From NCBI RefSeq assembly GCF_017309385.1, contig NZ_JAFJMJ010000001.1, positions 1,116,001-1,180,000 on the forward strand: 64,000 bases of DNA, written 5' to 3'. Each line of letters opens with the position of its first letter. The first letter of the stretch is position 1. The DNA comes from Amycolatopsis sp. 195334CR. Lineage in GTDB: Bacteria; Actinomycetota; Actinomycetes; Mycobacteriales; Pseudonocardiaceae. Below the pieces are notes generated by a model that was not told the origin of the DNA, did no database searches, and saw nothing but the letters and a program-made list of their open reading frames with translations. The position numbers and the translations under genes are program-made. Below, one piece after another: positions 11,761-30,123 of this stretch.

Positions 11761-11903
11761 TCGACCCGCGGTACGGCGAACACCGACAAACCGACCGCTG
11801 GCGGATCGGTGCTGCGCAGCTTCCGTCTGTCACCGCACTGGGTTGTCTGCCGGTCCGACTACACTCCGTTCGAACCGGTGGGCGTGACTGACTAGGAGGG
11901 GCT

Positions 11904-14900
11904 GTGGCATCGGGCGCCAAACCTCGCTCGTCCTCAGCGCGGTGGTATCAGCGCAAGCAGTCGGACTTTGCCTGGGAACAGGAAGGGCTCGACTTCATCA
12001 AGCGGCAGATGCCGGACGCCGATCCTTATCGCGCCTGGGCTACGTTTTCGTTCACCGCGATGTCCGGCCGGATCAATGAGTGCGACCTACTCATAGCCGT
12101 CCCCTCCGGCTTGTATCTGCTCGAGCTCAAGGCGCATCCCGGCCGGGTGACCAACCACGGTTCGACGTGGCGCGTCACCGACCGGCACAGCGGGCGGGTC
12201 CGGACCTTGCAGAATCCACTCGAACTAACCAACCTCAAGGCAAAGGAGCTGCGGGGACAACTGATGCGTGCGGCGCAGAAGGACGGCTACACCGGCCGGT
12301 TCCCGCGGATCGAGCCGATTGTCTTCCTGACCGACGCCGGACTCCGCAGCGAACTGGACGAGTTCCAACGCCCGAACGTCTATGCCCGGCACGCGAACAG
12401 CGGCTTGCCTGCCGTCTGGGACGACCTGCTGGCACGTCCGCCGCACCGCGAGGCAGACCGCATCAGGCCGGACTTCGCGTCTCGCACCTTGCCGCGGCTG
12501 ATGAGGACCATCGGCATCCAGTCCGCCACGGCCCACCTGCGCTATGGGGACTTCTGGAAGCTCGATCAGCGGGCACTCGACGCCGGGCCGTTCTGGGAGG
12601 ACAGGCTGGCCAGGCGCGACGACGGCGTACTCGACGAGCAAGGCCGGCTCCGGATCTACCTGATCAGCAAGGGCACCAGCAAGGCCGACGCCGAGAAGGC
12701 CGACCGGGCCGCCAGGCGTGAGTACCAAGTGCTGCAAGGGATCGACCATCGAGGCATCGCCCAGGCTCGGCAGTTCGGGGATCACCAGGGCCGACCCGCG
12801 ATCCTGTTCCGGCACCACGAGTCGGATCTGAGGCTGGACGCCTACCTGGCGACGTTCAGCGACTCGCTGACCTCGGAAACCCGCCTCGGTCTGGTCCGCC
12901 AGCTGGCCGAAGCCCTCAAGTACGCCCACGACCGACTGCTCTACCATCGTGCGTTGTCCCCACGGTCGATCTACGTCTCCTGCAGGCAGGACGGTTCCCG
13001 GCCGGTGCTCCGGTTGACCGACTGGCAGACGGCGGCGAGGGACTTCGAGACTACTTCGTTGCGGTCCATCGGGGACTCGTCGCTGGATGGGGCGTTCATC
13101 GAGGACACGGCGCTGCGCTACCTGGCCCCGGAGTCGGAGCAGCAGTATCCGGATCCGGTGGAGCTCGACATCTTCGGTCTCGGTTCGGTGTCCTATCTGG
13201 TGCTGACGGGGCGGCCACCCGCTTCGAGCCGGTCCGAACTCGTCGAGCGGCTGGGTACCGACGGTGGCCTCCAGGTCTCCGCGGTGGATGACACCCTGCC
13301 CCCCGAACTTGGCGAGCTGATCTACGACGCGACCCGCTCGGACGTCGTCCTCAGGCTGGATTCGGCGGCGGCCTTCCTCGACCGGCTCGACGACGCGGAG
13401 GAGGACGCCAAGCCGGTGCCCACCGGGCGTTCGTTCGTGGATCCGCTCGAGGCGATCGCCGGTCAGGAGGTGGACGACGAGTGGTTCGTGCGCCGCGTCC
13501 TCGGCACCGGGGCGACCGCGCGCGCTCTGCTGGTCGAGCGGCTCAGGGAAACCGACGACGGCACCGTCGTCGACGAGCGCGTGTTCAAGGTTGCCCTCGA
13601 CGAGGACAGCCGGGCGGCGAAACTGCACGATGAGGCAGAGGCCCTGAACAGGCTCAACGGTGGTTCAATTGTCCGGCTGTTCGACGGGCCGCGGACAGTT
13701 GGCGGTCACACCGCGCTGGAACTGGAGTTGGCAGGTGAGGTCTCGCTGGCCCGGTACCTGCGAGAACAGGGCGGGCTCACCTACCACGACCTGGACAACT
13801 TCGGCCACCAGCTTTTCCAGGCGATGTACCAGCTCGAAGCGGCCGAGATCCACCATCGCGACATCAAGCCGGACAACCTGGGCATCCACCACCGGGCGAA
13901 CCGGTCGCGACAGCTCAAGCTGCTCGACTTCTCCCTGGCCAAAGCCTCTCCGGCCGATCACGTGGGCACTCGGGGTTACCTCGATCCGTTCGTGCACACC
14001 ACGCGGCGGCAGCTCTACGACGACCACGCCGAGCGGTACGCCGCGGCGGTGACCCTGTACGAGATGGCCACTGGCGAGCGTCCACAGTGGGGCGACGGCA
14101 TCACCGCGCCAACAGTGACCCAGGACGAGACGCCCCGGATCGAAGGACACCTGTTCGACGATCGATTGCGGGACGGGCTCACCGCGTTCTTCATGCAGGC
14201 GCTGCACCGGGACACCGAGCAGCGGTTCTCATCGTTGCGCAAGATGGAAGCACTGTGGCGGTCGGTGTTCGCCGACGCCGACCAGGCGCGCCCGGCGACG
14301 ACGCAGGCCACGGTGGAAACGTCCGCAGCCGAGCGCTCGGACAACGAAGTGTTGGACCGCGCCGCGGAAGCCGCCGAGCTCACGACGCCGCTTGCGGCGG
14401 CGGGTCTCACTTCTCGTGCTGTTTCGGTCGCCGACGGCCTTGGCGCGACAACCGTCGGTGAGCTACTGGACATCCCGGCGTCGACGATCACCCGTGCCCG
14501 CGGGGCGGGTGCGCTGACCCGCCGCGAACTGACCAGACGACACCGGCAATGGACCGCGAAACTCCGCACGGGCGCCGCGCCCAGGTTGTCCTCGGAGAAA
14601 CTGGCCGTTCCGGTCAAAGTCGGGTACCAGTCGGTCGAGTTACTGCTGGAGCGTCTGCTCACCAAACCCCACGGCAAGGACAAAGGCCCCGACGTCGAAC
14701 GCCTGACGCTGGGACTTCCCAAGTCCGACGGCACCGTCACCAGGCTCAACGCCTGGCCTGTGCAACGCCTGGTCGCCGACGTGGTCGGGCTCACACAGCC
14801 CTCGGTGTCGCAGAAGTACGGCAAGTCCGTCAAGAAGTGGCGCACGTTCGCCTGGATGGACACGATCCGCCGTGAGGTCACCGAGATCCTCGACGACCTC

Positions 14901-16250
14901 GGCCGGATCGCGAGCGCGTCGGAGGTCGCGGCGGAGCTCCTGGCACGGCACGGCTCAACGGAGAACGACCCAGCCACCGCGCTGCGCAATGCTTCGGCGG
15001 TGGTCCGTGCCGCCGTGGACACCGAACTGATGCCACCGGGCAAGGAAGAGCCGGAGGTTCCCGAGCCTGCGTTGGCCGTCCTGCGCCGCAACGAACGGGT
15101 GCTCATCGCTTCCGAGTCGCTCAACGGCTCGGACGACCCGACGCCCAACGAGCTGGGCGACTACGCGATCGCACTGGGCCAGGCGGCCGATGTGATCTCG
15201 GCCCGCGACCCGCTGCCGAGTTCAGCGACAGCTCTGCGTGACCTCCAGGCGGTCGGCCAGCCCGAAGGGATGCGGCCGCTGGCCGACACCAGGCTGCTTT
15301 CCCTTGCCGCGGCGATGTCCGAGCGCTCGGCGGCTTCCCGCCGTCTGGAGCTCTACCCTCGCAACCTCCCGCTCGAGCGCGGCCTGCGTATCTCCCAGGC
15401 CGCAGCCGGGGTCGGCGAGGACGGAATCGCCTTGGACGCTCTTCTCGCCAAGGTCAGAGCCCGTTTTCCGGAGATCTCGCTCGGAGATCTCTCACCGATC
15501 GACGTCGGGGAAGCACTGCGCGAAGCGGGCAGCAGCCTGACCTTCGATCCGGTCAAGAATCGCTTCTGCCCGCCCAGACCGGTCGAGAGCCAGCGGCAGG
15601 CCCGGTCGTCTTCGGGCACCCTGACCTCGATCGACCATGTCGCCATCAGCACTGGCCGCAGCTCCGCCGAGCTGATCGCGGCACGGCTCGACGAAGGCCG
15701 AAGGCTCGGCGGCTTCCTCGCACTCAAGATCAAGGCGATGAAGCTGCCCGGAGCGGCCGAACTCGTCGCGTCGGAGCACGACGTGGTGGCCGTCGACCTC
15801 GGGCGGCTGTTCCTCACCGAGTTCCGGGCGCTGGCCCAGGAGCGCAACCAGGGCTGGGATCGCGTTCTCACCGCCGACACGCGCATCGCGCACAACGGCA
15901 CCATGCCGCCGGGGCTTGCTTCCTACGTGTCGGTGAGCTGGCAGCGGGTGCGGGACCGGCTGCTGGCCGCGCTGGCCGCAGCGGGGCCGCGCAGCGTGCT
16001 GTTCCTGCACGACGCCGGACTGGTCGGCCGGTACTTCGAAGCGGGCGGCCGCACCTTCCTGACCGAAATACAGCACGCCGCCCGCGACCCACAGGGTGTG
16101 CCGCACGGCCTTTGGTTGCTGTGCCCGGCGGAGAGTGCGGGCGAAACACCCAGTCTGGCCGGGCACATCGTCGGGACGGAAGGCGACCATGAGGTGCTGA
16201 TCCTGCGCAGCGAGTATCTCGATCTTCTCCGCAAGGGCGAAGTCGCCTGA
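11904..16250 (+). CDS. pglW: BREX type 2 kinase PglW (NERD + two kinase-like domains)
   Basis: 1448 residues; first gene of the Pgl/BREX type 2 operon. Domains: a NERD nuclease-like domain near residues 20-150 with E59-x-D61 and LELK (73-76); a kinase-like domain at about 245-490 that looks inactive (HRA at 348-350 replaces HRD, LTDW at 371-374 replaces DFG); a second kinase at about 528-800 with a glycine loop LGTGATA, K562 and an intact HRDIKPDN from 651, though DFG reads DFS; then a 650-residue C-terminal part with an RNAP alpha-CTD-like helix-hairpin-helix (830-880) and a sigma-region-4-like HTH (about 930-975, GLTQPSVSQKYGKSVKKW). In Streptomyces PglW is a Ser/Thr kinase needed for phage growth limitation. 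GTG start with AGGAGGG 4 bases upstream. One TTA codon at L913. Confidence 0.93.
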   Translation: MASGAKPRSSSARWYQRKQSDFAWEQEGLDFIKRQMPDADPYRAWATFSFTAMSGRINECDLLIAVPSGLYLLELKAHPGRVTNHGSTWRVTDRHSGRVRTLQNPLELTNLKAKELRGQLMRAAQKDGYTGRFPRIEPIVFLTDAGLRSELDEFQRPNVYARHANSGLPAVWDDLLARPPHREADRIRPDFASRTLPRLMRTIGIQSATAHLRYGDFWKLDQRALDAGPFWEDRLARRDDGVLDEQGRLRIYLISKGTSKADAEKADRAARREYQVLQGIDHRGIAQARQFGDHQGRPAILFRHHESDLRLDAYLATFSDSLTSETRLGLVRQLAEALKYAHDRLLYHRALSPRSIYVSCRQDGSRPVLRLTDWQTAARDFETTSLRSIGDSSLDGAFIEDTALRYLAPESEQQYPDPVELDIFGLGSVSYLVLTGRPPASSRSELVERLGTDGGLQVSAVDDTLPPELGELIYDATRSDVVLRLDSAAAFLDRLDDAEEDAKPVPTGRSFVDPLEAIAGQEVDDEWFVRRVLGTGATARALLVERLRETDDGTVVDERVFKVALDEDSRAAKLHDEAEALNRLNGGSIVRLFDGPRTVGGHTALELELAGEVSLARYLREQGGLTYHDLDNFGHQLFQAMYQLEAAEIHHRDIKPDNLGIHHRANRSRQLKLLDFSLAKASPADHVGTRGYLDPFVHTTRRQLYDDHAERYAAAVTLYEMATGERPQWGDGITAPTVTQDETPRIEGHLFDDRLRDGLTAFFMQALHRDTEQRFSSLRKMEALWRSVFADADQARPATTQATVETSAAERSDNEVLDRAAEAAELTTPLAAAGLTSRAVSVADGLGATTVGELLDIPASTITRARGAGALTRRELTRRHRQWTAKLRTGAAPRLSSEKLAVPVKVGYQSVELLLERLLTKPHGKDKGPDVERLTLGLPKSDGTVTRLNAWPVQRLVADVVGLTQPSVSQKYGKSVKKWRTFAWMDTIRREVTEILDDLGRIASASEVAAELLARHGSTENDPATALRNASAVVRAAVDTELMPPGKEEPEVPEPALAVLRRNERVLIASESLNGSDDPTPNELGDYAIALGQAADVISARDPLPSSATALRDLQAVGQPEGMRPLADTRLLSLAAAMSERSAASRRLELYPRNLPLERGLRISQAAAGVGEDGIALDALLAKVRARFPEISLGDLSPIDVGEALREAGSSLTFDPVKNRFCPPRPVESQRQARSSSGTLTSIDHVAISTGRSSAELIAARLDEGRRLGGFLALKIKAMKLPGAAELVASEHDVVAVDLGRLFLTEFRALAQERNQGWDRVLTADTRIAHNGTMPPGLASYVSVSWQRVRDRLLAALAAAGPRSVLFLHDAGLVGRYFEAGGRTFLTEIQHAARDPQGVPHGLWLLCPAESAGETPSLAGHIVGTEGDHEVLILRSEYLDLLRKGEVA

Positions 16251-16354
16251 GCCTTCGACTCATGCGCTGCGTTAGTCGGCAATCCGCCCTCCTGTTTGCA
16301 TAACGGATTGGTACGTTGAGTAGCGCTTAGTGGCCGCGCGACGATGAGGCCACG

Positions 16355-19300
16355 GTGAGCACGAGGGACAGGGAGCACATGCGCGTGGCGGACGGGATCG
16401 ATCAGGACGCTCTGCTGGCAGATCTGCGGCAGCAGTTGAAAATGCTGGAAGACGATCTGCGCGAGCGCAGCGCCGAACAGGTGTTCGACGGCCCGCTGCA
16501 CGAGGAGTATCAGAAGGCTCTCGACGCGGACCGCACGGCCGCGACCTACGAGACCTGGCGTGACGATCGGGTCACCCAGGCCGCGGTTGCCTGGCTACTC
16601 GGCTGTGTCTACGTGCGGTTCTGTGAGGACAATTGCCTGATCCCCGAGCCGTTCCTGTCCGGCCCCGGTGATGCGTTGGCCACCGCCCAGGAGCGGCACG
16701 AGGCGTTCTTCCGCGCCAACCCACATCTCAACGACCGCGACTGGCTCGAAGCGGCATTCAACCACCTCGCGGAAGCGCACCCGACGGCCGCGGGCTTGTT
16801 CGACCGTCGGTACAACCCGTTGTGGGAACTGACCCCGTCGTTCGAGGCGGCCAGCGCACTCCTTGCGTTCTGGCGCCGCCGCGGCCCGGACGGCGAGGTC
16901 GTCCATGACTTCACCGACGAGTCGTGGAACACTCGTTTCCTCGGTGACCTCTACCAGGATCTCTCGGACCACGCTAAGAAGACATACGCGCTGCTGCAGA
17001 CCCCGGAGTTCGTCGAGGAGTTCATCCTCGACCTGACCTTGACGCCGGCGCTGGAGACGTTCGGCCTCGACCCGACCGTGGAGATCCATCGCCAGGGCGG
17101 CGGAGTCGAGCGCACCCGCGAGGGCCTGCGCACGATCGACCCCGCTTGCGGCTCGGGCCACTTCCTGCTGGGCATCTTCCACCGCCTGATCGCCGAGTGG
17201 CGTCGCACATCGCCAGGTGTGGACGATTGGATCCTGATCCGGCGCTCCCTGGAATCGGTGCACGGCTGCGACAAGAACCCCTTCGCCGCGTCGATCGCCC
17301 GCTTCCGCCTCTTGGTCGCCGCCCTCAAGGAGGGCGGAACGCGCACTCTTGAGGCCGCCGGGGAGTTCCCAATCAACGTTGCGGTTGGCGACTCACTGCT
17401 GCACGGTATCGGTGTCAAGGGCGAGCAGATGGACATGCTCGGCTCGGAGGCGGATGATGAGTTTACCTACCGCGCCGAGGACGTAACCGAGTACATCAAC
17501 TCCTGCGACCTGCTGACCCAGGCCTCCTATCACGTCGTCGTCGGAAACCCGCCGTACATCACGGTAAAGGACAGCAACGAGAACAAGAAGTACCGCGAAC
17601 GGTGGAAAGCCTGCTCCGGCACCTACGCCCTGTCGGTCCCGTTTGCCGAGCGCCTGTTCCACCTGGCGACCCGCACCTCCGGCGGCGGCTACGTCGGCCA
17701 GATCACCGCGAACTCATTCATGAAACGCGAGTTCGGCAAGAAGCTGGTCGAGAAGTTCTTCCCGACCGTCGACCTGACCCACGTCATCGACACTTCAGGC
17801 GCCTACATCCCCGGCCACGGCACCCCGACGGTAATCCTGATCGGCCGCAAGCAGTTACCGCCCCCGACCAAGACGATCCGAGCAGTACTCGGCATCCGAG
17901 GTGAACCTGGCGTCCCCGCAGACGCCGACCAAGGACTCGTCTGGCAAGCCATCACTAATCACATTCACAAGCCAGGCAGTGAAACTGAGTGGATCTCCGT
18001 TTCGGATTTCGAGCGATCCGCCGTGGCAATGCACCCTTGGTCACTGGGCGGCGGCGGAGCAGGCGCACTCGTCGGCGCGATCGAACTGAATTCGATTCCT
18101 CTTGAGAACAAAATTAAGAAACCGATCGGTCGAGCTATTCGTGCCGGTGCTGACGAAGCCTATATCCGACCCAGTCGGCGTACGTTGCAGACAGTGGCCG
18201 AAACATCGGCGTTGCGACCACTCATGGTCGGTGATGTCGTCCGAGACTGGCATGCAAAACCAGATGAAAAAATTTGGTATCCATACGACGCCGAACTCAC
18301 CATGGCCAAGTTGCAAGCAGAACTTTGGCCATTGCGGACACTTCTTGCTGCGCGCCGAACGTTTCAGGGCGACATGGAGGATGCAGGTCTCGAATGGTGG
18401 GACTATATGCAACACACCGCGTCTGCGTACTCCACGCTGCTGTCCATAACGTTTGCGGAAGTGTCCACGCACAACCACTTCGTGCTGGATCGTGGAGGGA
18501 AGGTGTTCAAGCAGACGGCGCCGGTAATCAAGTTGCCGGCGGAGGCGAGCGGGGATGACCACCTGGCGATACTTGGAGCACTCAACTCGTCCACAATCTG
18601 CTTCTGGCTCAAACAGCGCTGTTTCCCCAAGGGGGGGAGTGGTATGGGGCGGGGAATTCAACCCGAAGATTGGATGGAGCGATACGCGTTCAATGCTGCC
18701 AATATCGGGGAAATACCTCTAGTTTTCAATCTGCCACTAAAGTCCGGACGCCTGTTGGATTCATTGGCGCAAGAGCTTGCTCAGCAGGAGCCGACGACAA
18801 TCGTTGAAGAATCCACGCCAACTCGCGAAGGGCTGGACAAGGCTAGAGCAGAACACAACCACCTCCGTGGCCGAATGATTGCGTTCCAGGAGGAGCTGGA
18901 CTGGGAGGTTTACCAGCTCTACGGCCTGCTCACTGATGTCGAAGCGCAAGACTTGCGGGCAAACGACGTGCCGGAGCTCAAGCTCGGTGAACGCGCCTTC
19001 GAGATTGTCATGGCGCGTAAGATAAAGGGCGGAGAACTCGAAACAGCTTGGTTCGAACGGCACGGATCGACGCCGATCACGGAGCTCCCACAGCACTGGC
19101 CCGACGCCTACAAACGCGTTGTCGAGAAGCGGATTGAGACGATCATCAACCACCGCGATATCGCGCTGATCGAGCGTCCCGAGTGCAAGCGCCGGTGGGC
19201 AACGGAACCGTGGGAGAAGAAGGAACGCAGGGCTCTCGAAACCTGGCTGCTCGACCGGTGCGAGGACAAGGATCTCTGGTTTGCCCTCCGTGACGGCCTG

Positions 19301-20008
19301 ACCGGTCCGCGCACATTGACCGTCAGCCAGCTCGCCGACCTGCTGCGCGGTGACGAGGACGTCAACTCCGTCGCCGCGCTGTATGCCACCGACCATCTCG
19401 GCAAGCGGGATCTGCCGCTGGCCGACGTGCTGGAGCAGGTCATCGCCACCGAGCACGTTCCCTATCTCGCCGCGATGCGCTACAAGGAGACCGGCCTGCG
19501 CAAGCGGGCGCAGTGGGAATCTGTCTGGGAGCAGCAGCGCGAGGAGGACCGCACCGGTGAGTGGCTCGATATCAAGGTGCCGCCGAAGTACACCTCCGCC
19601 GACTTCCGCAAGACCTCCTACTGGTCCCACCGCGGCAAGCTCGACGTGCCCAAGGAGCGGTTCATCTCCTACCCGGACGCCGGGCCGGAGGCCGACCCGA
19701 CGCTGCTGCTGGGCTGGGCAGGCTGGGACCACAAGGACCAGGCGCTCGCGCTGGTCAACGTGGTCAACGACCGGCTCGAGCAGTCGGGCTGGGGGGCCGA
19801 CAAGATCACACCACTGCTCGCCGGGCTGGCCGAGCTGCTGCCGTGGGTCAAGCAGTGGCACGCTGGCTACGACGCCAAGTGGGGCGGGAACCCTGCCGAG
19901 GAGTTCCGGACCGTTCTCGAACAGCAGCAGGCCAAGCATGGGCTGACCGACGAGGCGCTGAGCGACTGGCGGCCGGAACCGGCGCGGCGGGGACGCCAGA
20001 AGGATTGA
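16355..20008 (+). CDS. pglX: BREX type 2 adenine-specific DNA methyltransferase PglX
   Basis: 1217 residues; N6-adenine methyltransferase that marks host DNA in BREX. Motif I is DPACGSG at 262-268, with ACGSG the SAM-binding loop; motif IV is NPPY at 398-401 in VVGNPPYIT. The region after about residue 530 should hold the target-recognition domain and is clearly less GC-rich than its flanks. Seven G in a row occur in frame at 18631-18637 (codons 759-761). One TTA codon at L501. GTG 16355 is given as start; ATG 16379 (MRVADGIDQ), with GGGAG 4 bases upstream, is equally plausible. It starts 104 bp after pglW, the only sizeable gap in the operon, so an internal promoter is possible. Confidence 0.94.
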   Translation: MSTRDREHMRVADGIDQDALLADLRQQLKMLEDDLRERSAEQVFDGPLHEEYQKALDADRTAATYETWRDDRVTQAAVAWLLGCVYVRFCEDNCLIPEPFLSGPGDALATAQERHEAFFRANPHLNDRDWLEAAFNHLAEAHPTAAGLFDRRYNPLWELTPSFEAASALLAFWRRRGPDGEVVHDFTDESWNTRFLGDLYQDLSDHAKKTYALLQTPEFVEEFILDLTLTPALETFGLDPTVEIHRQGGGVERTREGLRTIDPACGSGHFLLGIFHRLIAEWRRTSPGVDDWILIRRSLESVHGCDKNPFAASIARFRLLVAALKEGGTRTLEAAGEFPINVAVGDSLLHGIGVKGEQMDMLGSEADDEFTYRAEDVTEYINSCDLLTQASYHVVVGNPPYITVKDSNENKKYRERWKACSGTYALSVPFAERLFHLATRTSGGGYVGQITANSFMKREFGKKLVEKFFPTVDLTHVIDTSGAYIPGHGTPTVILIGRKQLPPPTKTIRAVLGIRGEPGVPADADQGLVWQAITNHIHKPGSETEWISVSDFERSAVAMHPWSLGGGGAGALVGAIELNSIPLENKIKKPIGRAIRAGADEAYIRPSRRTLQTVAETSALRPLMVGDVVRDWHAKPDEKIWYPYDAELTMAKLQAELWPLRTLLAARRTFQGDMEDAGLEWWDYMQHTASAYSTLLSITFAEVSTHNHFVLDRGGKVFKQTAPVIKLPAEASGDDHLAILGALNSSTICFWLKQRCFPKGGSGMGRGIQPEDWMERYAFNAANIGEIPLVFNLPLKSGRLLDSLAQELAQQEPTTIVEESTPTREGLDKARAEHNHLRGRMIAFQEELDWEVYQLYGLLTDVEAQDLRANDVPELKLGERAFEIVMARKIKGGELETAWFERHGSTPITELPQHWPDAYKRVVEKRIETIINHRDIALIERPECKRRWATEPWEKKERRALETWLLDRCEDKDLWFALRDGLTGPRTLTVSQLADLLRGDEDVNSVAALYATDHLGKRDLPLADVLEQVIATEHVPYLAAMRYKETGLRKRAQWESVWEQQREEDRTGEWLDIKVPPKYTSADFRKTSYWSHRGKLDVPKERFISYPDAGPEADPTLLLGWAGWDHKDQALALVNVVNDRLEQSGWGADKITPLLAGLAELLPWVKQWHAGYDAKWGGNPAEEFRTVLEQQQAKHGLTDEALSDWRPEPARRGRQKD
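18631..18637 (+). repeat. G7 homopolymer inside pglX, candidate slippage site
   Basis: Seven consecutive G span codons 759-761 (AAG GGG GGG AGT, K-G-G-S). Loss of one G gives a TAG stop about 30 codons on; gain of one G gives a TGA roughly 60 codons on. In Streptomyces coelicolor, Pgl phase variation comes from a G tract in pglX. As sequenced, the frame is open. Confidence 0.7.
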
Positions 20009-20022
20009 GGGAGGGGACGAGG

Positions 20023-23000
20023 ATGGCCGAGGAGGTCTATCTCCGGGATGTGCTGCACATGCCGGAAGAGGTCAACCGGGGCGACTTCAAGATCGACCTG
20101 ACCAAGGGGTTTACCGCTACCGACGAGCTGGTCGGCAACTACGTCGTCACTGACCAACTCCGCGGCGCCTTCAACCAGGCGCTCGCCCTGCTGCGCACGG
20201 CGGTGCGCGACGGCAACTCGCACGCCGCCTACCTGCACGGCTCGTACGGTTCCGGTAAGAGCCACTTCATGACCGTGCTGCACGCGGTCCTGAACGGCAA
20301 CGACAAAGCACGGGAGAAACCCGAGCTGCGAAAAGTCGTCGCCGAGCACGACGAGTGGCTGGCAGGCCGCAAGTTCCTCATGGTGCCGTTTCACCTGATC
20401 GGAGCCGTCGACCTGGACGCGGCGATTCTCGGCGGCTACGTCAAGTACGTGCAGGACGCCCTGCCAGGCAAACCGGTCCCCGCGGTGTTCCGGGCCGACG
20501 CGATGCTCACAGATGCCAGGAATCTGCGCGCCGCGGTGGGCGACACCAAGTTCGCGGAGATGCTCGGCGGCGAGGACGCCGACCTTTCCGACCCCGCCGA
20601 CCTCGAACCTCTCGAAGGGCCGCCCGGCACCTGGAGCACCGTCGAACTCGACAACGCGTTCAGCTCCCAGCCCGGAGATCCGCGGCGGGACGCACTGGTG
20701 TCCGCGCTGCTGTCCGGGCCGATGGCGTCCTACTCCCGTGGCGCACTGGGCGACAAGGACGCCTACCTCCCGCTGGAGAACGGCCTCTCCGTCATCAGCA
20801 GGCACGCGCAGCAGCTCGGTTACGACGGCATCGTGCTGTTTCTCGATGAGCTGATCCTGTGGCTGCAGGGATACCTGTCCCGCCGCGACTTCGTCAACGT
20901 CCAAGTGAACAAGCTGGTCAAACTGATCGAGTCCGGCGACAGTGATCGGCCGGTGCCGATCATCTCCTTCGTCTCCCGGCAGCGTGACCTCGGCACCCTC
21001 ATCGGCTCGGACATCATGGGCTCCGAGGTCAGCAACCTCGAACAGCAGGTCCAGTACCTCGCCGAGCGGTTCGACACGATCAACCTCGAGGACCGCAACC
21101 TCCCCGCGATCGTCAAGGAGCGCGTACTCAAGCCACGCCCGGAGAAGGCCCACCTGCTCGACGCGGCTTTCAAAAGCATCGAGTCGACCAAGTCCAGCGT
21201 CAAGGACGCGCTGCTCGACGCGAACGGCGCGACGCACTCGGACTGGTCGGACTTCCGCGACGTCTATCCGATCTCGCCGGCGTTGCTCAACGTGCTGGTG
21301 GCGTTGTCCGGCGCGCTCCAACGCGAGCGCACCGGGCTCAAACTGCTGCAAGACATGCTGCACCGGCGGCGGGCTGATATGAAGCTGGGCGACCTCATCC
21401 CGCTCGGCGATCTGTGGGACGTCCTGGCCGAGGACACGACCGCCGCCTTCACCGACAAACTACGCGCCGACGCGGCGGCAGGACAGCGTTTCCACAGCAG
21501 GGTTCGCCGCTATCTGGAGAACAAGTACGGCTCAACCACCGACCCCCGCTTTGTCGCCGACGAACGGCTGATCAAGACCCTGCTGCTGGCCTCTCTTGCG
21601 CCCGACGTGTCCGCACTGACCCGGCTCACCGGCCAGCGGCTCGCCGCACTGAACTACGGGTCGATCACCTCGCGCACCGCCCAGCCGGGCGACCTGGCAA
21701 TCACTCGGCTGGGTGACCTCAAGACCGAGTTCGGCGAACTGCGCAGCGACGGCGACGAGAACCCGGTGTTCAGTCTGCACCTGTCCGACCTCGACATCGA
21801 GCCACTGCTGGACAATGCCAACGAGGCGGACGATGCCGCCAACCGCCGTAAGTGGCTGCGCCGCCAACTCTGGGAAGCGATGGGTGTCAAGGACACCGGC
21901 GACTTCGTGTGTGAACGCGAGATCGTCTGGCGTGGCACCAAGCGAACTGCCGAGTTCGTGTTCGAGAACGTCCGCGACCCGCAGGCGATGCCGGACTTCC
22001 AGTTCCGGCCCAGCCTCGATGGGGTGATCCGGTTCATCGTCGACTACCCCTTCGACGACCCCGACCGCTCACCCCGGCAGGACGCCGAACGTGTCGAGCA
22101 GCTCAAGCAGCACGGTCACGAACACCTGACCCTGGTGTGGCTGCCGACCTTCTGGTCCGAACAGCGCCATAACCAGCTCGGCCGACTACTGAAGATCAAC
22201 AACCTGCTCGAGCGCGGCAGGCTCGAAGCGGTCGCGGCGAACCGGTCGGCCGAGGACCGGATCCGGCTACGCACCCAGCTCGAAGTGCACAAGGAGAACC
22301 TCACATCGAGCCTGCGCGGTGTGCTCGCCCAGCTCTACGGGCTCTCCCGCGGTGACAATTCGAACCTGCGCGACCCCGAGGGCGAGCCCGGCCGGGTACT
22401 CAGTCTGTTCCCGCAGCACGCTCCACGACTGCACGTCGGCGCCCCGTTCGAGTACAACGTGCTCGAACTCGCAGACGGCATCCTCGGCGCGAAATACCGG
22501 AACCATCCGGACTTCGATCCCAAGAAGGAACGCAAGGCTGTCACTATCGGTGAACTGCGCACCGCGCTGAACTGGATCACCAGGGCGGCCGAGCAGGGCG
22601 GCCGGGTCGAGCTGGAGCGGAACCAGCTCGCCCAGATGCGTAAGATCGTGCATCCGCTCGGGCTGGGCGAAGTTCACGACGGGCCGTTGACGCTGAGCTA
22701 CGACTGGCGCACCCGCATCGAGCAGCACGCGGCGAGGAAGCAGGTCGCGGGCGACTACTCGGTAGACGACATCCGGCGCTGGCTCGACGAGCTCGAGTAC
22801 GCCGGCCTCGACAAACCGGTCGCGAACCTGATCATCGCCACGTACGCGTTGCTCGCCGACCGCGCCTGGATCCGCGAGACCATCCCGCAGGATGCCCCGG
22901 ACATCGGCAACATCGGCTCCGGCTGGGCGCTGCGTGCGCAGGAGCTGCCCAGTGAAGAGGAGTTCGCGGCAGCCCGTGCCCGGGCGGGCGCGATCCTCGG

Positions 23001-23715
23001 TGTGTCCGCGCCCGCGGCCCGGTTCACCCGCAACATCACCAAGCTGGCCAACGGTGTGATCGAGCAGGTCAGCAAGCACGAGCAGGTGGTGCACCGCCTG
23101 TACGAAGCCCTGAACAAGCATGCTTCCGAGCTCGGGATCGAACCGTCGTCACCACGGGTGATAACGGTGAGAGCAGGCGCGGACCTGCTCGCCAAGCTGA
23201 TCGGCATCACGGACTCGACGAAGCTGATCAGGACGCTGGCGCACCTGCCGAACCCGGACGACGACGAGGCGCTGGCCAAGACGATCTCGTCGGCCCAAGA
23301 GGTCCTGAGCGCGCTCGAAGGCGCCGATTTCGAGCTGCTGCGAACGATCAGGCCGTATCTCGACCGCTCCGACGGCATCCGGGATCGCACCGAACGCCTC
23401 ATGACCGATATCGCGGAGACAGCACAGGCCGACGAGAGAACGCGGCAACTTGGCCCCAAGTTGCAGGGCTTCCGTCCGATCGCGATGAAGATCATTCAGG
23501 ACGCTACCGCCGGGCCTGGCCCAGGTCCGACACCACCTCCGGCCCCGCCTCCCGCGCCGCAAGCCCGGCAGACACGCCGGATGACGGCCGACGCACCTCC
23601 GGCGAAGTTGGCTGAGACGATGGACGACGTGCGGCGGTCGGTGAGCGAGTTCGCCAGGGAACACCCAGGCCAGGAGATCGAGATCTCCTGGCGTGTCGTC
23701 GACGGGAAAGCCTGA
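20023..23715 (+). CDS. pglY: BREX type 2 P-loop ATPase PglY (BrxC-like)
   Basis: 1230 residues from ATG 20023, preceded by a GAGGGGACGAGG ribosome site and 14 bp after pglX. The P-loop is GSYGSGKSH at 73-81 and the Walker B is VLFLDEL at 271-277. The N-terminal start (LRDVLHMPEEVNRGDFKIDL) is typical of BrxC/PglY, where a helical DUF6079-type region follows the ATPase. A proline-rich linker (PGPGPTPPPAPPPAP) near residue 1170 precedes a short C-terminal helix-strand unit. PglY is an essential BREX component; the ATPase probably assembles with PglX and PglZ. Stop overlaps the pglZ start by one base (TGATG). Confidence 0.94.
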   Translation: MAEEVYLRDVLHMPEEVNRGDFKIDLTKGFTATDELVGNYVVTDQLRGAFNQALALLRTAVRDGNSHAAYLHGSYGSGKSHFMTVLHAVLNGNDKAREKPELRKVVAEHDEWLAGRKFLMVPFHLIGAVDLDAAILGGYVKYVQDALPGKPVPAVFRADAMLTDARNLRAAVGDTKFAEMLGGEDADLSDPADLEPLEGPPGTWSTVELDNAFSSQPGDPRRDALVSALLSGPMASYSRGALGDKDAYLPLENGLSVISRHAQQLGYDGIVLFLDELILWLQGYLSRRDFVNVQVNKLVKLIESGDSDRPVPIISFVSRQRDLGTLIGSDIMGSEVSNLEQQVQYLAERFDTINLEDRNLPAIVKERVLKPRPEKAHLLDAAFKSIESTKSSVKDALLDANGATHSDWSDFRDVYPISPALLNVLVALSGALQRERTGLKLLQDMLHRRRADMKLGDLIPLGDLWDVLAEDTTAAFTDKLRADAAAGQRFHSRVRRYLENKYGSTTDPRFVADERLIKTLLLASLAPDVSALTRLTGQRLAALNYGSITSRTAQPGDLAITRLGDLKTEFGELRSDGDENPVFSLHLSDLDIEPLLDNANEADDAANRRKWLRRQLWEAMGVKDTGDFVCEREIVWRGTKRTAEFVFENVRDPQAMPDFQFRPSLDGVIRFIVDYPFDDPDRSPRQDAERVEQLKQHGHEHLTLVWLPTFWSEQRHNQLGRLLKINNLLERGRLEAVAANRSAEDRIRLRTQLEVHKENLTSSLRGVLAQLYGLSRGDNSNLRDPEGEPGRVLSLFPQHAPRLHVGAPFEYNVLELADGILGAKYRNHPDFDPKKERKAVTIGELRTALNWITRAAEQGGRVELERNQLAQMRKIVHPLGLGEVHDGPLTLSYDWRTRIEQHAARKQVAGDYSVDDIRRWLDELEYAGLDKPVANLIIATYALLADRAWIRETIPQDAPDIGNIGSGWALRAQELPSEEEFAAARARAGAILGVSAPAARFTRNITKLANGVIEQVSKHEQVVHRLYEALNKHASELGIEPSSPRVITVRAGADLLAKLIGITDSTKLIRTLAHLPNPDDDEALAKTISSAQEVLSALEGADFELLRTIRPYLDRSDGIRDRTERLMTDIAETAQADERTRQLGPKLQGFRPIAMKIIQDATAGPGPGPTPPPAPPPAPQARQTRRMTADAPPAKLAETMDDVRRSVSEFAREHPGQEIEISWRVVDGKA

Positions 23716-26414
23716 TGGCCCGGGTTCCTTTTGTCACGCGGGCGGGGATCGAGTCCCTGCTCACGCAACACAGAACCGAGCTGGACAAGCGGCCGGGTCG
23801 ATGCCTGGTGCTCGTCCACGGCCGGTATGAGCCGGGGGAACGTGCCGAGTTCCGGCTGAAGCCTGTCGGAGGTGAGCAGGGCGAGCGGGCCGTGCGCGTG
23901 ACCGACCAGCCCTCGGTGCTGGGTATCGCGGCCGAATGGCTGGACTACCAGGAAACCGGAGCCGACTCGGGTGTGCTGGTGGTGACCACCGGGGTGGATC
24001 CCGACGAGCTCGACTGGGACCTACGGGGACATGCGCTCGACACCGGCCTGTTGCGAGTCGACCCGGTCGAGATCCTGAAGTTCCGGTTCGGCGCCAACCG
24101 GCTGGATCCCCGAGTGTGGCAGTCCGGCTGGCTGGTCCAGGCGCTGCTCGACGCCGAACCCACGGGTGGCTGGCCGCGCCGGGGTGGCGTGCTGACCTAC
24201 GACAACGCCCTGCTCGCGCTCGTCGGACAGCGACTCGGCGTCGATGCCGCGGCCCTCGACCTGGACCGGCTGCTCGACTGGTCACGGGGCGCCGGAGCGG
24301 CCCGATGGGGCGATCTGGACACCGCCGAACGTGACGGCATCCGCGACTGGCTGGTCGAGCGCCTCGGTCCCGCCGCGGAGACCGTGCTCACCTTGGTCTC
24401 GGCTGGTCGAGGGCGTGACGCCTTGGCACTGGGCGTGGTCGGCACGGCACTCGCTGATCCCTCCCTGCCGCGCGACGCACTGGTGTCGGTCGGCGGGCTT
24501 TTCCCCAGCATCCGCTCGGATGCAGTCGAAGCCTTCTCGTCGGCGGTCGACGGCACGCTGAGCCGGTGGATCACCGCGGCGGGACCTGAGGACTCCCAGG
24601 CATGCCACGACGTGCTCGCCTTGCTCGAACGTGCCGACGAGCTGGCTCGCCAAGCCGGTCTCGGCGAGGCGTTGTCCGGCAGCACTCTGCTCCCCTCCGC
24701 CTGGCGAGCACGCCTTCGCGCCTTGGCCACGGCACTCCCCGACCCGAAGGCGGCGAGCCTCGCACTCGGCGAGCTCCGCCGACATCGGTTGGCCGACCTG
24801 TTGACCTCCCAGAGGGCCACCGCGACCATGGCCGTCCGGTTGGCACGGTGGCTGTCGACACCGGACCCAGGTGTCCCGTCCGTGGCCGTGGGCGTCCGGC
24901 AGCAGGTCACCGAATGGGGCTGGGTCGACTACGCTATCGCCGTGCTGTGGGCCGGTGATGCGGCAGTCGAGCCGGTGAGTGCTAGGGCCTATCACGACCT
25001 CTGTGAGCAGGCGGTCGCCCGTCGCGCCGGTTCCGACGAAGAGTTCTCGCACCGCTTGGTTTCGTGGGTACCGCACGCCCGCGCACAGCTCTCGGAAGGC
25101 GCATTGCTGATCGAAGACGTGCTGACGGCGGTCGCGGTCCCGCTGGCCGGTAACACGGCACCCGTCGTTGTCGTGCTCGACGGCATGAGCGCCTCGGCTG
25201 CGGTACAGCTGGGCGACGAGCTGGGGCGCCGACCGAACTGGCAGGAGGCTACCCCTGCATCCGGCACCCGGCTGGCTGCGGTGTCGGCGTTTCCGTCGAT
25301 CACCACAGCGAGCAGGCCGTCCCTACTGTGTGGAAGACCCGTCGCGGGTGGCCAGCCGACGGAGAAGGACGGCTTCGCCGTCTTCTGGAAGAGGCACCAC
25401 AAGCTAGCCCGGTTGTTCCACGAGAACGAGGTCGGCGGTGGAGCAGGCATGAGCCTCAACCCCGAGCTGGTCGCGGCCCTGGCCGGGGAGGAGGTCATCG
25501 GTGTCGTGCTCAACACCATCGACGACACGCTCGGCCCCGGTCGCGAGGGCGAGGGGACGACCTGGCGCCTCCAGGACATCCGGTATCTGAACACCCTGCT
25601 CACCCAGGCACGTAGCTACGGGCGCCCGGTCGTGCTGACCTCCGACCACGGGCACGTACTGGAGCGTGGCCGCGCGGTCGGCCCTTCCTCAGCGACTGGC
25701 GAATACGGCGCGCGGTGGCGGACCGGAACGGCCGCCGACGGCGAAGTCGAACTGCGCGGTCCACGGGTTCTCGAAGGGAACGGCAAGGTCGTCCTGCCGT
25801 GGCGCGAAGATCTCCGATACACGCAGAAGCGTGCGGGCTATCACGGTGGCGCGGCTCTGGCCGAGGTCAGCATCCCTGTCCTAGTCCTGTTGCCCTCGGT
25901 CGACGGGCTCCCGGGCGGCTGGACCGGGCTCGCGCCCGAGCAGACGACGCCTTCGTGGTGGTGGGACGCCCCGGAGCCGGTGACCGAGATGACCACCTCA
26001 GTTCCCAAACCGTCACGCAAGAAGCCGAAGTCTGTTCCCGACGGCCCCGGCCTGTTCGACCGCCTCCTGGCGGAGACCCCCGCGTCAACTCCAGCGTCGC
26101 CGCAGAGCATCGGCCAGGAAGTGGTCAAGTCGAAGATCTTCGGCTCGCAGAAGGCTTTTGTCCGCAGGGCTCCCGACGTCGAGGTGATCGCCGCGGTGAT
26201 CGACTGCCTTGTCGAAGCGGGCGGCAAACTGTCACTCGCCGCGATCGCCGCGACAGCGGGCAAAGCGGCCCGGAACATCGACGGGTTCCTCGCCACCGTT
26301 CAGCGTCTGCTCAACGTCGAGAGTTATCCGGTGTTCGAGCTCATCGATGGCGGTCGGACCGTGGAGCTCAATATCGAGATGCTGCGTACGCAGTTTCAGT
26401 TGGATAAGCCGTGA
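23715..26414 (+). CDS. pglZ: BREX type 2 alkaline-phosphatase-fold protein PglZ
   Basis: 899 residues. The alkaline phosphatase superfamily core lies in the middle to C-terminal half: VVVVLDGMS (D489, S492 in metal/nucleophile position), TTASRPSLLCG, and the metal-binding SDHGHV at 643-648. A variable N-terminal half and a C-terminal winged-helix-like tail (FVRRAPDVEVIAAVIDCL onward) flank it. PglZ is the signature protein shared by all BREX types and is required for defence; its biochemical substrate is unsettled. ATG overlaps the pglY stop, and its own stop overlaps the brxD GTG (GTGA). Confidence 0.95.
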   Translation: MARVPFVTRAGIESLLTQHRTELDKRPGRCLVLVHGRYEPGERAEFRLKPVGGEQGERAVRVTDQPSVLGIAAEWLDYQETGADSGVLVVTTGVDPDELDWDLRGHALDTGLLRVDPVEILKFRFGANRLDPRVWQSGWLVQALLDAEPTGGWPRRGGVLTYDNALLALVGQRLGVDAAALDLDRLLDWSRGAGAARWGDLDTAERDGIRDWLVERLGPAAETVLTLVSAGRGRDALALGVVGTALADPSLPRDALVSVGGLFPSIRSDAVEAFSSAVDGTLSRWITAAGPEDSQACHDVLALLERADELARQAGLGEALSGSTLLPSAWRARLRALATALPDPKAASLALGELRRHRLADLLTSQRATATMAVRLARWLSTPDPGVPSVAVGVRQQVTEWGWVDYAIAVLWAGDAAVEPVSARAYHDLCEQAVARRAGSDEEFSHRLVSWVPHARAQLSEGALLIEDVLTAVAVPLAGNTAPVVVVLDGMSASAAVQLGDELGRRPNWQEATPASGTRLAAVSAFPSITTASRPSLLCGRPVAGGQPTEKDGFAVFWKRHHKLARLFHENEVGGGAGMSLNPELVAALAGEEVIGVVLNTIDDTLGPGREGEGTTWRLQDIRYLNTLLTQARSYGRPVVLTSDHGHVLERGRAVGPSSATGEYGARWRTGTAADGEVELRGPRVLEGNGKVVLPWREDLRYTQKRAGYHGGAALAEVSIPVLVLLPSVDGLPGGWTGLAPEQTTPSWWWDAPEPVTEMTTSVPKPSRKKPKSVPDGPGLFDRLLAETPASTPASPQSIGQEVVKSKIFGSQKAFVRRAPDVEVIAAVIDCLVEAGGKLSLAAIAATAGKAARNIDGFLATVQRLLNVESYPVFELIDGGRTVELNIEMLRTQFQLDKP

Positions 26415-27730
26415 CGCCGGCCAGCGCGGTACGCCGTCGTGAGGTCGTCGACGCGCTACGTCGCGGCACGGTCCCCCAGTCCGGGTTGGACCTGTTCGCG
26501 GTCGGGCTCGACCGGTTCGCCAGGGCGCTTGACGATGATCTCGACACGATCAAGCGCGGCGGCGCGGCCTTCCACGCGATCCGCGGTGAATACGGCTCGG
26601 GCAAGACGTTCTTTGCGCGCTGGCTTGCCGAACGAGCGAAGCGAGCCGGGCTGGCGACCAGCGAGATCCAGATCTCGGAGAGCGAAACCCCGTTGCACCG
26701 CCTCGAAACCGTGTACCGACGGCTGTCCGAGCGGCTGGCGACCTCCACTCACCAGCCGAGCGCGTTGCGACCGGTGATCGACTCCTGGTTCTACACACTC
26801 GAAGAAGAGGTCCTCGACACCGGCGAAGTCGATGAGGATGACGAAGACGCCGTCGCCGAAGCAGTGGACACGCTGATGGAGCGCCGCCTGGGCGACGTAG
26901 CCAGAACGACCCCCGCGTTCGCCTCCGCGCTCCGTGGATACCGTCGCGCGAAGCGCGCCGACGATGCCGCAACCGGAGAAGCGGTTATCGCCTGGCTGGG
27001 CGGGCAGAAGTCGGTAGCGGCGTCCGCGAAGCGGGCTGCCGGAGTACGCGGGGACCTCGACCACTTCGGCGCGCTCGGTTTTCTCCAAGGCATGCTGACC
27101 GTGCTGAAGGATTGCGGCCACCCCGGCCTGCTGGTTGTGCTCGACGAGATCGAGACCCTGCAACGCGTTCGCGGTGACGTGCGGGAGAAAGGCCTCAACG
27201 CACTCCGGCAGTTGCTGGACGAGATCGACACCGGCCGCTTCCCCGGGCTGTTCCTGGTGATCACCGGCACTCCGGCATTCTTCGACGGGCAGCAGGGCGT
27301 GCAGCGCCTGCCACCGCTGGCGCAACGGCTCGCGACCGACTTCACCACCGACGCCCGGTTCGACAATCCGCGCGCGGTCCAGCTCCGGCTGCCCGGGTTC
27401 GACTTGGATCGTCTGGGGGAGCTGGGCCGGAACGTCCGCAACCTCTACGTCGGCGACGCCAGGGAGCCCGAACGGATCGCCGCGCGCGTGGACGATGCCT
27501 ACATCGACGATCTGGCGGGGGCCGTGACCGGGCGAATGGGCGGCCGGGTGGGTGTCGTTCCGCGCGTTTTCCTCCGCAAGCTCGTCCAGGACGTGCTCGA
27601 CCGGGTCGACGAACACGAAGAATTCAACCCTCGGGTGCACTACCCGGTGACCGTGAAGAGCTCCGAGCTCTCAGAGGAGGAACGCAACGCCGTCGCAGAC
27701 GCGGACGACATCGACCTGGACCTCCCGTGA
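26411..27730 (+). CDS. brxD: BREX type 2 ATP-binding protein BrxD
   Basis: 439 residues, AAA/ORC-like ATPase of the DUF2791 (BrxD) family, specific to type 2 BREX. P-loop GEYGSGKT at 59-66, Walker B LVVLDEIE at 241-248, and a sensor-like VITGTPAFF. The acidic stretch DTGEVDEDDEDAVAEAVD near 135 is a surface loop. In type 2 systems it is always paired with the helicase BrxHI, as here. GTG start and stop both overlap neighbours by four bases, so translation is coupled from pglZ to brxHI. Confidence 0.93.
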   Translation: MTPASAVRRREVVDALRRGTVPQSGLDLFAVGLDRFARALDDDLDTIKRGGAAFHAIRGEYGSGKTFFARWLAERAKRAGLATSEIQISESETPLHRLETVYRRLSERLATSTHQPSALRPVIDSWFYTLEEEVLDTGEVDEDDEDAVAEAVDTLMERRLGDVARTTPAFASALRGYRRAKRADDAATGEAVIAWLGGQKSVAASAKRAAGVRGDLDHFGALGFLQGMLTVLKDCGHPGLLVVLDEIETLQRVRGDVREKGLNALRQLLDEIDTGRFPGLFLVITGTPAFFDGQQGVQRLPPLAQRLATDFTTDARFDNPRAVQLRLPGFDLDRLGELGRNVRNLYVGDAREPERIAARVDDAYIDDLAGAVTGRMGGRVGVVPRVFLRKLVQDVLDRVDEHEEFNPRVHYPVTVKSSELSEEERNAVADADDIDLDLP

Positions 27731-29823
27731 GTTCCGGGCCAGACCGGCTGCTGCCTGCGCTGGTGCACCACATCGTCAACACGCTCGGCTGGCCGGAGCT
27801 GCGTCCACTGCAGGCCGAAGCGATCGATCCGCTGCTCGACGGCTCCGACGCGATCCTGCTGGCGCCGACGGCAGGCGGCAAGACCGAAGCTGCCGTGTTT
27901 CCACTTCTCAGCCTCATGGAGGAGCAGTCGTGGCTGGGTATATCGGTGCTGTACATCTGCCCACTGCGGGCGCTGCTGAACAACCTCCAGCCCAGGTTGG
28001 CGAGTTACGCGGGCTGGCTCGGACGAACCGCCGAGGTGTGGCACGGCGACGTCGGCTCCGGAGCACGGGAGCGCATGCGCCGGGAACCGCCGGACATCCT
28101 GCTGACCACGCCGGAGTCCCTCGAAGCAATGCTGGTGTCAGCTAAGGTGGACGCCCGGCGCATGTTCTCCGGCCTTCGGGCGGTCGTGGTCGACGAGGTC
28201 CACGCCTTCGCCGGCGACGACCGCGGATGGCACTTGCTCGCAGTCCTCGAACGGCTGTCTCGGATCGCCGGACGCCCGCTTCAGCGCATCGGGCTGTCGG
28301 CCACCGTGGGCAACCCGGCCGAGCTGTTGGAGTGGCTGCAGGGCTCACAACGCTCCAGGCCACGATCTGTGGTGGCGCCCGTCGGCGGCACAACGACGGC
28401 GCCGGATCTCACTGTGGACCATGTGGGCTCGGTCGAGAACGCGGCCACGGTCGTCGCTGCACTGCACCGAGGGGAAAAACGGCTGGTCTTCGTCGACAGC
28501 CGCCGCCGTGCTGAGGAGCTCGGAGCGGCGTTACGCGCCCGCGAGGTCACCACGTTCCTCTCGCACTCCTCGCTCTCCGCGGACGAGCGCCGCAGATCGG
28601 AGCAGGCTTTCGCGGAAGCCCGCGACTGCGTGATCGTCGCGACCTCCACCCTGGAACTGGGTATTGACGTTGGCGATCTCGACCGGGTGATCCAGATCGA
28701 CGCTCCACGGACGGTGGCGTCGTTCCTCCAGCGTCTGGGCCGGACGGGACGTCGCCCGGGAAGCACCCGAAACTGCCTTTTCCTTTGTCTCGAAGAAGCA
28801 GCCGTGCTCAGCATCGCCGGCCTGCTCGAACGGTGGGCCGCAGGGTGGGTGGAGCCGATCGCGGCTCCGGTGCACCCCTGGCACATTACCGCACAGCAGG
28901 TGCTCGCCCTTGCCCTGCAAGAGAATAAGATCGGGACACACACCTGGAGGGAGTGGTGGGGCGACCTGCCATTGTTCGACGAACACCGGGTCGAGATTTT
29001 CGATCATCTGCTCGCTGAGGGCTACTTGGAACGGGATGGCGCGATGGCATTCATCGGGCCAGAGGCGGCGAAGAAGTTCGGCCGACGGTACTTCTCCGAC
29101 CTGCTCGCCGTGTTCAGCGCGCCACCGGAGTTCACGGTCCTCGCCGGACGCGAGGAGATCGGCCGGGTTGGGGACGACGTCCTGCTCGCCGATGACCATG
29201 ACGGGCCGAGGGTTCTGCTGCTCGCCGGGCGCGCGTGGAAGGTCGGATACGTCGACTGGAAGCGAAGGCGGTGTTTCGTCGAGCCGAGTGATCTTCCTGG
29301 CCGCGCCAGATGGGGCGGTGGCGAGGGCGGCCTGTCCTTCGCCCTTACCCGCGGCCAGCAGTCGGTCCTGCTGGGCACCGATCCTGCCGGGGTCCGATTC
29401 ACTCGCCGAGCCGCGTCTGTGCTAGCCGAGCTTCGTGAGAAGCACGCCGACCATGTGGCGGAAAACGCGACCGTGGTCCGACGGTCGGCAGGTGAGCTCA
29501 GGTGGTGGACCTGGGCGGGCGCCGCCGTCAACCGTACCCTGCAGGCTAGTCTCCCCCGTATTGTGGATCCGCGGCAACGCATAACCGATCATTCCTTACG
29601 CCTGCTGCCAGATATCTCGAACATCGAATTGCTCCGCGAACTGTCCACGCCGATTCCGCTCACCCGCCCTGACGTGAGCAAATCAGCGGTGAACGGGCTC
29701 AAATTTTCCACAGTGCTTCCGGAAGCGCTCGCGATCGAAACAGTCGCGGAACGCCTTTCTGACCGGACGCACGCGAAGATCGTGTTGTCAGAACGACGCG
29801 CGTTCGTGCACGTCACAAGCTGA
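27727..29823 (+). CDS. brxHI: BREX type 2 DEAD/DEAH-box helicase BrxHI
   Basis: 698 residues, superfamily 2 Lhr-like helicase and last gene of the operon. Motif I APTAGGKT at 46-53, DEVH at 156-159, LSATVGN motif III, and the motif VI arginine-rich FLQRLGRTGRR. The C-terminal 300 residues are specific to this family. Two TTA leucine codons (L269 and L624) are unusual for a high-GC actinomycete. GTG start within the brxD stop. No clear terminator directly follows the TGA. Confidence 0.93.
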   Translation: MSSGPDRLLPALVHHIVNTLGWPELRPLQAEAIDPLLDGSDAILLAPTAGGKTEAAVFPLLSLMEEQSWLGISVLYICPLRALLNNLQPRLASYAGWLGRTAEVWHGDVGSGARERMRREPPDILLTTPESLEAMLVSAKVDARRMFSGLRAVVVDEVHAFAGDDRGWHLLAVLERLSRIAGRPLQRIGLSATVGNPAELLEWLQGSQRSRPRSVVAPVGGTTTAPDLTVDHVGSVENAATVVAALHRGEKRLVFVDSRRRAEELGAALRAREVTTFLSHSSLSADERRRSEQAFAEARDCVIVATSTLELGIDVGDLDRVIQIDAPRTVASFLQRLGRTGRRPGSTRNCLFLCLEEAAVLSIAGLLERWAAGWVEPIAAPVHPWHITAQQVLALALQENKIGTHTWREWWGDLPLFDEHRVEIFDHLLAEGYLERDGAMAFIGPEAAKKFGRRYFSDLLAVFSAPPEFTVLAGREEIGRVGDDVLLADDHDGPRVLLLAGRAWKVGYVDWKRRRCFVEPSDLPGRARWGGGEGGLSFALTRGQQSVLLGTDPAGVRFTRRAASVLAELREKHADHVAENATVVRRSAGELRWWTWAGAAVNRTLQASLPRIVDPRQRITDHSLRLLPDISNIELLRELSTPIPLTRPDVSKSAVNGLKFSTVLPEALAIETVAERLSDRTHAKIVLSERRAFVHVTS

Positions 29824-30050: not shown

Positions 30051-30123
30051 TGCCCTCGGCAGGATTCGAACCTGCGACACCTGCCTCCGGAGGGCAGTGC
30101 TCTATCCCCTGAGCTACGAGGGC
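30051..30123 (-). tRNA. tRNA-Arg (anticodon CCG)
   Basis: 73 nt on the minus strand, starting GCCCTCG and ending CGAGGGC plus discriminator A at 30051; CCA is not encoded. The acceptor stem is a perfect 7-bp pair, the D arm is GCTC/GAGC, the anticodon stem CTGCC/GGCAG with loop CTCCGGA gives anticodon CCG reading CGG arginine codons, and the T arm is GCAGG-TTCGAAT-CCTGC. Its 3' end faces the BREX operon, the usual orientation for islands inserted at tRNA 3' ends. Confidence 0.95.

Follow-up and report, generated by a model that had tools for sequence, protein, structure and literature searches.

In the available text of PMC9122589, the phage growth limitation (Pgl) system of Streptomyces coelicolor is the only one among the type 2 bacteriophage exclusion (BREX) systems for which a detailed description is cited. 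The biochemistry given for it in the available text of PMC4365076 describes PglX as a methyltransferase, PglW as a kinase, PglY as an ATPase and PglZ as an antitoxin, and homologues of all four proteins are encoded by the locus described here, including the motifs probed in that work: NPPY in PglX, the kinase in PglW and Walker A in PglY. This locus occupies positions 11904 to 29823 of a 64-kb stretch of DNA from the soil actinomycete Amycolatopsis sp. 195334CR (contig NZ_JAFJMJ010000001.1, positions 1,116,001 to 1,180,000), the whole of which is hereafter called the window. The pglX gene of S. coelicolor carries a tract of eight G residues (G8) whereas that of the window carries seven (G7), and the loci of Streptomycetaceae have wide gaps beside pglX whereas here the six genes lie close together, the gaps on either side of pglX measuring 104 and 14 bp. 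The locus of A. anabasis (L044) has the same gene order and matches 11802-29839 of the window at 89% DNA identity; it differs in its genomic place and in one segment of PglX (module 2, below). We consider it very likely that the locus of the window is a complete type 2 BREX (Pgl) anti-phage system, an ~18-kb cassette inserted beside a tRNA-Arg gene, which works as proposed below and in which modules of PglX have been replaced. The locus is otherwise a standard, ordinary type 2 BREX, and the module exchange is the part which specialists may not expect.

The genes of the locus and their profile matches are as follows.

11904-16250, plus strand: pglW, 1448 amino acids, with NERD, pseudokinase, Ser/Thr kinase and a C-terminal half; NF033442 1435.8 bits (cut-off 990), PDLC02512 1424.7 bits, Pfam NERD and Pkinase.

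16355-20008, plus strand: pglX, 1217 amino acids, BREX-2 adenine-specific DNA methyltransferase; NF033451 1750.5 bits (cut-off 400); its structural model aligns with CamA and BrxX.

20023-23715, plus strand: pglY, BrxC-type ATPase, 1230 amino acids; PDLC02488 1363 bits, NF047891 952.1 bits (cut-off 1700).

23715-26414, plus strand: pglZ, 899 amino acids; NF033446 781.9 bits (cut-off 200), PF08665 28.7 (cut-off 25).

26411-27730, plus strand: brxD, ATPase, 439 amino acids; NF033438 667.1 bits (cut-off 350), PF10923 477.9 bits.

27727-29823, plus strand: brxHI, helicase, 698 amino acids; PDLC02503 1037.8 bits (PADLOC).

The original prediction had read these genes as PglW, PglX, PglY, PglZ, BrxD and BrxHI, in the set and order of type 2 BREX on one strand. 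All six frames are found at the positions it gave, with Pfam, PADLOC and NCBIfam scores far above chance, and the hidden Markov model search with BREX profiles which it had named as a check places every gene in the expected type 2 BREX family. The mechanical open reading frame of pglY starts at 19561, and the ATG at 20023 was adopted as its start on the basis of family-profile fit and spacing; the PADLOC BrxC-PglY model PDLC02488 covers residues 159-1380 of the extended frame. The name BrxHI comes from PADLOC, because the best 25 of 31 NCBIfam matches of the sixth protein included no model of BrxHI. A single PglZ match is found in the whole genome.

The catalytic motifs named in the prediction are likewise all present, and their key residues are conserved in homologue alignments in which the window is counted. 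For these alignments, and for the synonymous-shuffle test described below, only complete, single-piece, open copies were used (43 of pglW, 51 of pglX, 40 of pglY, 24 of pglZ, 21 of brxD and 16 of brxHI). PglX has NPPY in 51/51 sequences and DPACGSG in 48-51/51 per position. In the second kinase domain of PglW, HRD is present in 43/43 and DFS replaces DFG, likewise in 43/43, while residues D61, E74 and K76, which we take to be the catalytic residues of the NERD domain, are unchanged in 43/43. The first kinase-like domain of PglW is without the catalytic Asp, and since the stretch H348-R349-A350 is found in all 43 sequences the pseudokinase is a feature of the family; it has already been published (PMC12839542). 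The G-x-GKS motif of PglY (G76, G78, K79 and S80) is conserved in 40/40, D644, H645, G646 and H647 of PglZ in 24/24, GKT and DE of BrxD in 21/21, and D156, E157 and H159 of BrxHI in 16/16. PglX could instead be mainly a stand-alone modification or type IIG-like enzyme with the other genes as decaying passengers, and the PADLOC type IIG model PDLC03617 does span PglX end to end with 1306.7 bits. However, PglX models score higher (1688.9 bits in PADLOC, 1750.5 in NCBIfam), all six reading frames are open and keep their conserved catalytic positions, and the whole block recurs at 89% DNA identity in another species, which makes a stand-alone PglX hardly credible.

While the gene identities are established here, the mechanism of the complete system is drawn by analogy with S. 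coelicolor Pgl and type 1 BREX. PglX would use its target-recognition region to read a short non-palindromic site, in which it would N6-methylate an adenine. PglW, with its NERD domain, pseudokinase, active kinase and sensor-like C-terminal half, may act jointly with the ATPase PglY in relaying or licensing the response, whereas PglZ is proposed to restrain PglX and is possibly the nuclease. BrxD as a loader and BrxHI as a helicase would both act on the target DNA. The domain reading of PglW, BrxHI and BrxD follows PMC12839542.

Two modules were delimited in the target-recognition region of PglX.

18032-18439, plus strand: module 1, PglX residues 560-695, in the target-recognition region.

18602-18859, plus strand: module 2, PglX residues 750-835, in the target-recognition region.

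The predicted fold would place residues ~560-695 and ~750-835 in the target-recognition region. The model aligns with type 1 BrxX/PglX (9ewz, 8c45) and CamA (7lt5, 7rfk) at a low identity of 12-19%, by which these proteins differ from PglX of the window, and the fold search barely covers the C-terminal DUF7008 part (841-1216). From 173 pglX loci we obtained 165 distinct sequences, 148 of them spanning more than 1050 residues, and the 141 without internal stop were aligned as the basis of the module and Spearman results; for the Streptomyces group, 102 of 392 genomes had a match at E 1e-50, and 30 loci and 80 further regions were retrieved. Module borders and the type cut-offs of 0.60 and 0.70 are our choices. 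In most close pairs, whose backbones are 80-98% alike, modules 1 and 2 are replaced, sometimes one module alone. Between the window and A. anabasis, for example, the identity of module 2 is 0.54 while that of the backbone is 0.93.

A different explanation for this variability would be that the segments are not swapped cassettes and are instead fast point-mutating parts under diversifying selection, as the target-recognition domain of type 1 BrxX is its most variable part according to the available text of PMC11842806. However, synonymous codons change too. Codon use was compared in the 20 pairs of highest backbone identity out of 50 single-use pairs, counting identical residues with 4- or 6-fold codons: the window and A. 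anabasis use the same codon at 267/379 of such residues in the backbone and at 9/29 in module 2, and the pair L117 and L118 at 365/421 in the backbone and at 8/30 in module 1. Since identity at synonymous codons is also lost in the replaced modules, recombination is suggested. The similarity of the modules also tracks that of the backbone poorly, with Spearman coefficients of 0.46 and 0.48 compared to 0.92 for a control segment. Point mutation as the source of the variable segments therefore appears improbable, and the comparison indicates that the two modules are replaced by recombination, at times singly, so that reshuffling of the site recognised by PglX probably outpaces by far the evolution of the remaining system. 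Going one step further, we would put at about even chances that the target site of type 2 BREX PglX is built from two separately exchangeable modules, recombination making new specificities combinatorially while the other parts stay near constant.

The five other operon genes were compared in the same way as a control. In PglY a drop of more than 0.30 is seen in some segment of the comparison in 13/48 pairs, the three largest at the C-terminal end; from ~residue 1141 (~23443-23715) this end is very variable in some close pairs.

Several points weigh against the overall reading. In PglX, residues 700-745, which separate the two modules, also vary to a middling degree, with 193 of 821 pairs more than 0.30 below the backbone, 361 intermediate and 267 kept, and the module borders were fixed after the dips in variability were seen. 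No donor was found, that is, no pair with backbone below 0.70 and module above 0.85, which would also suit point mutation. Module 1 of the window and A. anabasis, which is scored as kept, has the same codon at only 36/67 residues as compared to 267/379 in the backbone. The exchange of modules gives no direct word on the site which PglX reads. Outside PglX, the 952.1 bits of PglY with the NCBIfam PglY model NF047891 lie under the curated cut-off of 1700. Finally, whether host or phage DNA is the methylation target of type 2 BREX is disputed (PMC12839542 and the available text of PMC4365076). In the latter text no detectable host methylation is reported for S. coelicolor and methylation only during infection is proposed by its authors; the absence of an N6-methyladenine motif attributable to PglX, which the original prediction would have taken as a refutation, is therefore a weak criterion.

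Exchange of target-recognition parts is a known way of changing specificity in the HsdS subunits of type I systems and in type IIL enzymes. There, recognition parts are replaced; here, two parts within one BREX methyltransferase appear from sequence comparison to be replaced. Divergence of target-recognition sequences in type 2 BREX is already in print (available text of PMC12839542), and an independent exchange of two modules in type 2 PglX was not reported in the literature searched, which excludes most subscription papers. If the two-module exchange is true, the methylomes of many actinomycetes might be decoded in two parts, the modules of a PglX not yet studied might predict its site, and module swaps could be used to probe the disputed discrimination between self and phage in type 2 BREX. 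As a locus, it is a further intact type 2 BREX of compact layout, found in Amycolatopsis, and its insertion site is mapped.

The insertion is delimited by comparison with genomes of the same genus.

11598-30049, no strand: inserted segment, missing from three same-genus genomes (G004, G060 and G074) which keep both flanks.

30049-30123, minus strand: tRNA-Arg(CCG); its 3' end forms the right-hand boundary of the insertion.

The two flanks of the block have colinear counterparts in G004, G060 and G074, where homology to the window stops at 11597 and resumes at 30047-30050, and the DNA between the flanks amounts to ~185 bp, 3.9 kb and ~560 bp, respectively; the 3.9 kb in G060 (L093) carry genes for an aldo/keto reductase and an MmyB-like regulator. 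The colinearity of the flanks without BREX in these genomes shows that the BREX block is an insertion abutting the 3' end of tRNA-Arg. Three further genomes (L095, L097 and L098) match the right side only and are uninformative on the insertion. A query of tRNA-Arg with the cation-efflux gene has matches in all 80 genomes of the genus, own included; among the matches listed, a single match spans both in at least 11 genomes, again own included, and in the others they appear as separate pieces. In A. anabasis the block sits at a different genomic place: the DNA to its left is unrelated (the right side is covered by 166 bp), and the tRNA-Arg and efflux region of A. anabasis is on another contig. 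Full-length PglX is present in 5 of 35 other same-genus genomes and in 9 of 60 overall, own and weak matches included. Among plasmid records 85 match PglX, all below 60% identity, and in six of them one place covers at least 80% of PglX. An integrase-borne island was considered and rejected, as the sequence outside the six genes (306, 104, 14 and 226 bp) is too little for an integrase; a 104-residue frame at 11606-11920 lies outside the scan. A search limited to exact 11-base repeats found no direct or inverted one common to 11401-12000 and 29701-30200.

The original prediction had described six overlapping genes. This holds for three of the five junctions, those from pglY on, which overlap by 1 base (pglY-pglZ), 4 bases (pglZ-brxD) and 4 bases (brxD-brxHI), whereas pglW-pglX and pglX-pglY are the gaps of 104 and 14 bp. 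Translational coupling, by which the prediction had the stoichiometry fixed, may follow from such overlaps. For relatives the junction gaps are approximate, being taken from tblastn ends, and the loci were grouped by hand by organism name, with L001-L008 left out. A pglW-pglX gap of at least 250 bp is found in 24/24 Streptomycetaceae loci, 2/14 Pseudonocardiales loci (window included) and 0/7 other loci, and a pglX-pglY gap of this size in 24/24, 2/15 and 2/5, respectively; in the Streptomycetaceae loci both gaps flanking pglX are 0.4-8 kb wide (24/24 each). The overlap of brxD and brxHI recurs in 10/13 Pseudonocardiales loci, and the pglZ-brxD junction ranges from an overlap to a gap of 29 bp in 12 Pseudonocardiales loci as compared to a gap of 86 bp in 4/4 Streptomycetaceae loci. 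The compact layout is thus not universal among type 2 BREX loci, and by the counts of wide gaps it is the usual form in Pseudonocardiales, the slots flanking pglX being the places where relatives carry cargo.

Predicted genes are present in most of the wide gaps, and in four of the smallest pglX-pglY gaps (L022, L041, L052 and L062; ~300-550 bp) a simple caller found no predicted gene of at least 90 amino acids. Pfam was searched with 16 of the 168 predicted gap proteins and with an additional frame of L012, and PADLOC with some of these. They include a QatC-like protein, PADLOC candidate-defence proteins, a helicase-nuclease, a DUF5753 regulator, a HATPase protein and an Rhs protein, and in the gap of A. 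azurea (L012) an IetS-like subtilase stands next to an IS481-type transposase; six of the 17 have no Pfam match at 0.001. Cargo beside pglX, some of it defence-like, is seen at L012:4646-9960, L036:4930-9897 and L028:15430-17561. Auxiliary effectors associated with BREX are already in print (available text of PMC12839542).

An internal promoter in the 104-bp gap between pglW and pglX, where the original prediction had allowed for one, is plausible, and a scan with a sigma-70 pattern found no site in this gap. Alignment with A. anabasis and A. azurea revealed two conserved blocks.

11854-11872, plus strand: 19-bp block ahead of pglW, shared without mismatch by A. azurea and with one mismatch by A. 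anabasis, a candidate control element.

16301-16327, plus strand: 27-bp block ahead of pglX with the same sequence in the window, A. anabasis and A. azurea, a candidate pglX promoter or operator.

The 27-bp block starts 54 bp before pglX and the 19-bp block 50 bp before pglW. The homology of A. azurea starts exactly at both blocks (11854 and 16301), and there the 27-bp block stays with pglX despite ~5.3 kb of other DNA between pglW and pglX. The 27-bp block is present in 3/50 loci, which are three of the five Amycolatopsis loci (L017 and L018 are without it); within 220 bp before pglX, nothing within 8 mismatches of it was found in the other 47. For the 19-bp block, matches with 6-8 mismatches lie at scattered places before pglW in 19 of the 41 remaining loci (44 in all), and we take these as chance. 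Both blocks may be promoters or operators.

One TTA codon is present in pglW, one in pglX and two in brxHI. In Streptomyces, TTA codons make expression dependent on a rare leucine tRNA. The TTA codons might tie expression of pglW, pglX and brxHI to such a tRNA.

The G7 tract of pglX was considered as a possible switch.

18631-18637, plus strand: G7 tract inside pglX, candidate slippage site, the sole homopolymer of at least 7 in the 64-kb window and not conserved.

Slippage in this tract could switch the operon off and on like the G-tract of S. coelicolor pglX, to which phase variation is attributed in the available text of PMC4365076, where the tract was found shortened from 8 to 7 G in two of three strains deleted for pglZ; this reading also draws on the available text of PMC6326788. 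The position of the sole long homopolymer inside pglX would fit such a switch, and so would a Streptomyces pglX (L192) which has C7 near a frame change. In relatives, however, the tract is not kept: A. anabasis has only G5 at its position, and G7 or longer occurs in 10 of the 165 distinct pglX loci, scattered over residues 500-764, the position of the window being common to L025 and L062 only, with C7 or C8 in two further loci. Moreover, every one of the six genes, including pglX, has fewer G and C runs than its synonymous-codon shuffles, in a comparison from which the duplicates of the window and the short duplicates L001-L005 were left out; the deficit of G runs is smallest in pglX, where 39 runs of at least 6 are observed as compared to 91.7 ± 7.8 in the shuffles, pglW having 6 as compared to 60.9 ± 7.0. 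A switch of the operon by slippage in this tract is hence unlikely, with a small possibility left for this strain. A conserved phase-variation tract as a general feature was rejected, as G7 is not conserved and runs are avoided. Frame changes or stops are seen in pglX of several relatives (in L192, L197 and L051 by frame change).

In the left part of the window, each of the neighbouring stretches 4571-5114 and 5441-5991 is matched at ~75% identity by the counterpart of the other in relatives as well, and the two are probably paralogous genes.

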